Source of the DNA: an uncultured Clostridium sp.
GTDB lineage: Bacteria > Bacillota > Clostridia > TANB77 > CAG-465
Direction: 5' to 3'
Assembly (NCBI GenBank): GCA_948470565.1
Contig: CAOKPF010000015.1
Coordinates: 1-34,348, forward strand
DNA length: 34,348 bases
The translations under genes and the position numbers were made by a program. Shown piece after piece: positions 33,771-34,348 of this stretch. Position 1 is the first letter of the stretch. Every line of letters begins with the position of its first letter. The notes below the pieces were generated by a model, which was not told the DNA's origin, made no database searches, and saw nothing but the letters and a program-made list of their open reading frames with translations.

Positions 33771-33799
33771 TTGAAAAAAAATATAAAAATTATTAAAAT
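33771..33799 (+). promoter_or_regulatory. Promoter of the (AC)n micro-gene
   Basis: TTGAAA (33771-33776), 17-bp spacer, TAAAAT (33794-33799), 19 bp before the ATG at 33819. In such A/T-rich sequence this could be chance, but position and spacing are right. Confidence 0.5.
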
Positions 33800-33818
33800 A
33801 AAAGAGGTGAATACTAAT

Positions 33819-33961
33819 ATGAATAAAATTATGTTAAATAAGGACAGTGAAAATGCGATGATACTACACACACACACACACACGTAGATGTATTAAATAA
33901 TAGAAGAAAAAAGCAAGGTGTAACTGCGCCAAAAAATACATATATAAATACCAATAGTTAA
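33819..33961 (+). CDS. Micro-gene split by an (AC)9 tract; phase-variation candidate, currently out of frame
   Basis: ATG 33819 follows GAGGTGA with an 8-nt spacer. The frame reads MNKIMLNKDSENAMIL, then H-T-H-T-H-T, and meets TAG at 33885 immediately after the (AC)9 tract, giving 22 aa. In the frame reached by losing one AC unit (or gaining two), it would continue VDVLNNRRKKQGVTAPKNT to TAA 33959, a 46-aa product. That downstream frame has no start of its own: a TGA lies just upstream at 33848. The long-frame stop sits inside the left arm of a strong terminator, and a promoter is in place, so the unit looks like a complete gene in its OFF state. Function unknown; a pseudogene is the alternative. 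Confidence 0.55.
33866..33883 (+). repeat. (AC)9 dinucleotide tract inside a micro-gene
   Basis: Nine uninterrupted AC units, the only AC tract of this kind seen in the window and out of keeping with its A/T-only low-complexity runs. A change of one unit alters the reading frame. Confidence 0.95.
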
Positions 33962-33987
33962 GTAAGAATACTTAGCTATTGGTATTT
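33946..33987 (+). terminator. Terminator overlapping the micro-gene's long-frame stop
   Basis: 19-bp stem AAATACCAATAGTTAAGTA / TACTTAGCTATTGGTATTT with one G-U pair and loop AGAA. The stop TAA of the long frame (33959-33961) is in the left arm. The T-run is short. Confidence 0.8.
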
Positions 33988-34077
33988 GTACTGTTAAAAA
34001 ACTGAAAATATGTTCTATTTAATATTATATATAACGTATAGTTAGCAGTGAAAAAAATATTAAAGGAGGAAAAAATA

Positions 34078-34348
34078 ATGGAAAAAAAGGGAAAAAAGAA
34101 AAAAAATGAGGGTATAAATCTTATAGTGTTAGTAATAACAATAGTAGTAATTATAATAATTGCAGGAGCAGTAATACTAAATATAAGTAATAATAATCCA
34201 ATAACAGAAGCTAGAAAGGCAAGATTTCTATCAGATATAGATACATTCAAAAGTGAGCTTAGTATGTATAAGTTAAGTAAACAGGAAAATCAAATGGGAA
34301 ATTATGATGGTACAAAGTTATATGCTGATAAAATTTCAGTAACAGATG
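34078..34348 (+). CDS. Prepilin-like protein 4, partial (runs off window)
   Basis: The first 90 codons of a gene whose end is outside the window. AAAGGAGG lies 8 nt before the ATG. A long basic leader (MEKKGKKKKNEG) precedes INLIVLVITIVVIIIIAGAV, a prepilin-type membrane helix with Val at mature position 5. Then comes ITEARKARFLSDIDTFKSEL, like the helix following the anchor in pseudopilins, so cleavage after Gly12 is expected. It resembles the three prepilin-like proteins at 28243-30842 but is not part of their operon. The intact length and any C-terminal domain are unknown. Confidence 0.7.
   Translation, partial: MEKKGKKKKNEGINLIVLVITIVVIIIIAGAVILNISNNNPITEARKARFLSDIDTFKSELSMYKLSKQENQMGNYDGTKLYADKISVTD

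Follow-up and report, generated by a model that had tools for sequence, protein, structure and literature searches.

The AC repeat near the end of the analysed DNA is, at a rough probability of 80%, the switch of a phase-variable, translation-coupled transcription attenuator that would control the next gene, and the unit would not serve to make a peptide. The window, i.e., the whole analysed stretch of 34,348 nucleotides, is an entire contig of an uncultured Clostridium sp. (CAOKPF010000015.1), and the tract lies approximately 465 bases from its end. The (AC)9 tract, start codon, ribosome site, promoter-like hexamers, and open frame listed by the original prediction were all found in the sequence where it had placed them (Table 1).

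Table 1. Features of the leader unit in the window; n is the number of AC units.
Feature	Positions	Strand	Remarks
Promoter-like TTGAAA-17-TAAAAT	33771..33799	+	upstream of leader
Ribosome-binding site of leader, GAGGTG	33804..33809	+	sequence
Leader ORF at n = 9	33819..33884	+	ATG 33819; 22 aa, MNKIMLNKDSENAMILHTHTHT; stop TAG 33885-33887
(AC)9 tract	33866..33883	+	proposed slippage switch
Tail frame VDVLNNRRKKQGVTAPKNTYINTNS	33884..33961	+	reached only if n = 2 mod 3 (n = 8, 11); stop TAA 33959-33961, hairpin 5' arm
22-bp hairpin	33943..33990	+	proposed attenuator; 5' arm 33943-33964, loop 33965-33968, 3' arm 33969-33990; T-run poor
Proposed controlled gene, AGGAGG + ATG 34078	34064..34348	+	pilin-N-terminus-like surface protein, truncated by contig end

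The repeat unit is not a multiple of three and is located inside a translated-looking leader ORF with a ribosome-binding site. It lies outside the controlled coding sequence, in a separate leader, and not within the gene as classical coding repeats do. The leader encodes 22 aa at n = 9 and 46 aa at n = 8, in the latter case with the stop codon buried in the hairpin stem, as had been predicted; at n = 11 the product is 48 aa and not the expected 46 aa. What had been called a terminator is a strong hairpin (−27.1 kcal/mol, z −7.4, 0/200 shuffles) but not a canonical terminator, as its 3' flank ATTTGTACTG has no canonical T-run and a consensus terminator scan called no intrinsic terminator at this hairpin. 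The leader RNA is unstructured and holds no antiterminator (leader z +1.26), and an Rfam search of the window returned no family. The neighboring prepilin-like gene is that of a surface protein with a pilin-like N-terminus, of which the 90-aa fragment present gave no Pfam match.

In the proposed mechanism, transcription would start at the leader promoter, and a ribosome would begin at the leader ATG and traverse the AC tract, in which slipped-strand mispairing would alter n. At n = 2 mod 3, the ribosome would go on for approximately 25 codons, stop inside the hairpin and keep it open, whereupon RNA polymerase would read on and the pilin-like surface gene would be ON. At n = 9, the number present in the window, or n = 7, which most sister copies have, translation would stop 0 to 5 codons past the tract, the hairpin would form, and the gene would be OFF. 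Since such a switch recurs ahead of many paralogous surface genes, the subset expressed in any one cell would be small and would change at random. The frames, the hairpins, the recurrence of the unit, the genes behind it, and the upkeep of the frame without a conserved peptide can be seen in the sequence, whereas we infer that slippage happens in vivo, that the hairpin terminates transcription, and that expression goes ON and OFF.

A DNA search of the own genome (G000) returned nine related leaders with n = 6, 7 (six times), 9, and 11, which excludes, across paralogues, the fixed (AC)9 that had been named as an outcome refuting the original prediction. A strong promoter lies at a constant position in these copies (sites in 9/9 vs 0.5 in shuffles), and in the eight copies other than that of the window it reads TTGAAA/TTGCAA-18-TATAAT at one fixed distance. 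Within the genus, sampled with one genome per species, ACT(AC)8 occurs 126 times in 6/28 genomes (among them G002 with 27, G010 with 28, G017 with 15, G039 with 49, and G021 with 5 occurrences), and the reversed-pattern control gave 0. The own and several related genomes contain 5 to 49 unit copies each, and 123 units with their flanks were gathered from six genomes of the genus. The genes that follow nearly always belong to two paralogous surface families, one pilin-like (21 genes, GISLIVLVITII...) and one signal-anchored (57 genes, KRKVSIFTIFLWLFLITT...). The leader heads of 12 codons (M-x-TK/NK-...-L) are fairly conserved across several relatives, and the DNA before the tract is conserved among copies. 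A promoter between hairpin and gene is found in few units; in G010, a promoter-like match lies there in 4/14 units. Many copies are located at contig ends because the units are repetitive, while assembly artefacts are an unlikely source of the AC tracts, as the design recurs in independent assemblies. On contig C57, the own genome also has another leader family, distinct from the first but built alike, with a hairpin of −30 kcal/mol and a T-run. Frame switching via the AC tract, as originally predicted, is strongly supported by these paralogues and relatives.

The sequence between tract and hairpin is the most informative part of the unit. In the terminator-bearing genomes, one post-tract frame remains open as far as the hairpin, where its stop codon falls in the 5' arm, the loop, or the 3' arm. 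The two remaining frames are usually closed within about 20 nt, and alternative repeat numbers shift the stop from before the hairpin to a position in or near it. The relatives have a hairpin plus T-run in most units, except for G039. Among distinct tails, the long frame reaches the hairpin uninterrupted in 21/24 cases in G010, 19/20 in G002, and 9/10 in G017, where shuffling leads to expect 1.1, 2.6, and 0.55, respectively; these comparisons give an effect size and not exact probabilities, since the paralogues are non-independent. The distance from tract to hairpin in G010 ranges from 60 to 87 nt and is 0 mod 3 in 24/25 units. At the same time, tail pN/pS values of 0.98, 1.10, and 1.73 correspond to an absence of amino-acid constraint, and the tail peptides are unrelated between genomes. 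A mechanism based on ribosome transit predicts that selection acts on the open path and not on the peptide, a pattern that would be unexpected if the peptide were the product.

The latter had been the claim of the original prediction, namely a phase-variable small peptide whose 46-aa form is functional and is toggled by slippage. It draws on a complete expression unit and on the fairly conserved heads. However, the second half is unconserved as a protein, the stop is nearly always placed at the hairpin ahead of a surface gene, and two genomes encode YIHT in place of HTHT. A peptide function was rejected on pN/pS, and we regard this explanation as improbable. Homologues with neither half conserved, the other refuting outcome that had been named, do not describe the data as worded: frame and length are conserved, whereas the sequence drifts.

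The two genomes in question (G001 and G040) carry (TACA)5-19 in place of AC behind the same leader head, and in these leaders, too, the long frame ends in the hairpin with a pilin-like gene next. Judged by this exchange, it is the frame-shifting that is conserved, and neither the HT peptide nor the AC sequence. The TACA repeats argue against a role for the HT peptide, for His/Thr codons, or for an AC-binding factor. They also bear on the idea that the AC tract works at the DNA or RNA level, either as a recombination seam for the shuffling of surface genes or as a target for regulator binding, with the reading frame being incidental. Copies at many contig ends, the conserved pre-tract sequence, and two own-genome copies that are identical for approximately 1 kb of the gene and then mosaic would agree with such a site, but it has little chance of being the correct explanation, as it leaves unexplained the open frame to the hairpin in nearly every copy, the 0 mod 3 distances, and the TACA change. 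An AC-binding regulator was rejected on the TACA relatives, and recombination among unit copies may take place in addition to switching.

An amino-acid attenuator, in which the HTHT run would sense the charging of His- and Thr-tRNA as in the his and thr operon leaders, could account for an alternating run of His and Thr codons followed by a hairpin. Nevertheless, surface-protein genes instead of biosynthetic genes lie downstream, a competing antiterminator is missing, the hairpin would remain free if the ribosome stalled in the tract, and Tyr-Ile-His-Thr replaces the run in relatives. His/Thr attenuation was rejected on the TACA relatives and the missing antiterminator, and its probability is very small. 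A decayed micro-gene with no present role is similarly hard to believe, since promoter, start, frame, and hairpin are retained together in most copies, even though n = 9 is out of frame and intact parts are missing in some copies (the ACG start of G017:C12, and C2:55443 without a long tail). The leader with the ACG start (G017:C12:2064) precedes a gene resembling an IS200-type transposase and is probably a dead switch.

Returning to the translation-coupled attenuator, the tract lengths allow a prediction of the state of each unit. On this reading, the window unit is OFF, like most units of the genus, where only 3/65 are predicted ON (binomial P 2e-8 against one third, a value not to be taken at face value as paralogues share ancestry and n). 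Outside the genus, 7/29 units are predicted ON. The repeat number varies among paralogues with very similar leaders in G307 (n = 9 to 16) and G039 (n = 5 to 20) and is near-uniform in other genomes, with n = 11 in 22/24 units of G002 and n = 12 in 13/15 units of G017. Only 3/23 pairs with near-identical flanks differ in n. The near-uniform values and the few differing pairs suggest that slippage may be slow or that n may be under selection.

The near-uniform n, the few differing pairs, the poor T-run of the window hairpin, and the promoter-like matches between hairpin and gene in G010 count against the attenuator, and the units of two genomes do not fit its simple form. In G039, none of 43 units has a terminator after the leader, and in the six units of G052 the long frame stops 31 nt after the tract and at least 37 nt before the best hairpin. 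In G039, about 40 or about 108 nt separate the tract from the start of the surface gene, and pairing is possible between the post-tract sequence and the leader head around the tract.

Beyond the genus, CT(AC)9 was found in 31/385 sampled genomes of the order, distributed over 14/48 genera, with three control hits in all. In ten genomes outside the genus, the long-frame stop lies in the hairpin in 29/42 units, and a few more read just through it. The head CTTGNNNCTCTACACACACACACAC was found in none of 391 genomes searched across the class, a sample in which the order is thinly represented and the cassette bearers known outside the genus are absent, and which shows only that the head is not common elsewhere. 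In some other genera of the order, a similar head, ETLDTL/ESLDAL-(HT)n, is fused into long frames of HsdS (PF01420), acyltransferase (PF01757), and DNA methylase (PF01555), all of them typical phase-variable functions. Such genes with an in-frame (AC)n (L297, L296, L314, L315, and L374) are candidate phasevarion and surface-modification switches that share the head of the leaders. We give even odds to a wider reading, in which a short head, an (AC)n or (TACA)n repeat, a tail, and a hairpin make up a portable frame-switch cassette that is restricted, within the sampling, to one order of uncultured Clostridia. This cassette would have been copied before dozens of paralogous surface genes and, minus its hairpin, into restriction-modification and acyltransferase genes. 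Together, these would provide genome-wide antigenic variation, with most surface genes held off by attenuation and few on at once.

The closest known counterpart is found in Streptococcus gallolyticus, whose pil1 and pil3 are both governed by GCAGA repeats within a leader ORF (Danne et al. 2014, PMC3894217). There, short leaders stop upstream of the terminator (OFF) and long ones in or next to it (ON), mutants of the pil1 leader start and terminator behave as the attenuation model expects, and read-through needs leader translation (PMC3894217). The units described here share the short non-triplet repeat within a leader ORF, the position of the stop relative to the hairpin, and the pilus or surface gene downstream. 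They differ in the repeat unit (AC or TACA instead of GCAGA), in scale (up to about 49 per genome vs two loci), and in the surface proteins (pilin-like and signal-anchored proteins vs LPXTG pili). Moreover, the pil1/pil3 mechanism is experimental, whereas ours is predicted from sequence, and the likeness drawn here is one of design. In the literature searched, no report of repeat-switched attenuation was found outside the two S. gallolyticus pilus loci and a close relative.

Other systems share single elements of the design. In the E. coli pyrBI attenuator, a ribosome translating the leader into the terminator prevents termination, as proposed here, but control is exerted by UTP-dependent pausing and not by repeat slippage. 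The vlhA (GAA)n family of Mycoplasma gallisepticum likewise comprises numerous paralogues for surface proteins, most of them off and every one equipped with a repeat; this repeat, however, lies in the promoter region and acts by length instead of reading frame. In phase-variable hsdS and methylase genes (phasevarions), slippage in classical coding repeats changes the reading frame, with the repeat inside the controlled gene, whereas the window tract is placed in a separate leader. Related hsdS genes that switch by recombination have also been described (PMC7394358).

The mechanism is hence already known in kind and would appear here in a new form and at a much larger scale, a view well supported by the comparison. 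New are the repeat units, the genome-wide use over paralogous surface genes, the order-wide spread, and the (AC)n head in HsdS, DNA methylase, and acyltransferase frames. If large surface-gene families of uncultured gut Clostridia are, as seems likely, routinely controlled by such units, this would amount to a general mechanism with interchangeable repeat units. The ON/OFF state would then be readable from DNA, with n mod 3 predicting the expressed surface genes, and this prediction could be checked in existing metagenome and metatranscriptome data without cultivation.

Additional signs of variability were observed among the surface genes. Two switched genes of the own genome (L026 and L025, on G000:C36 and C74) share an identical coding sequence for the first ~1.07 kb, then become mosaic, and are nearly identical again at the end; their leaders and AC7 tracts are near-identical as well. 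This pattern suggests gene conversion or segment exchange between the two copies. Furthermore, diversity-generating retroelements were detected in G000:C57 at about 1509-1941 (L345) and in G021:C20 (L349:1436 and 3762). In their 90-nt template/variable pairs, all mismatches fall at a template A (10/10 and 19/19), and reverse transcriptases lie nearby. The C-terminus of one AC-switched surface gene in G021 shows homology to the template repeat of that genome (35 mismatches, of which 16 are at A), so a hypervariable family may include some of the switched surface proteins.
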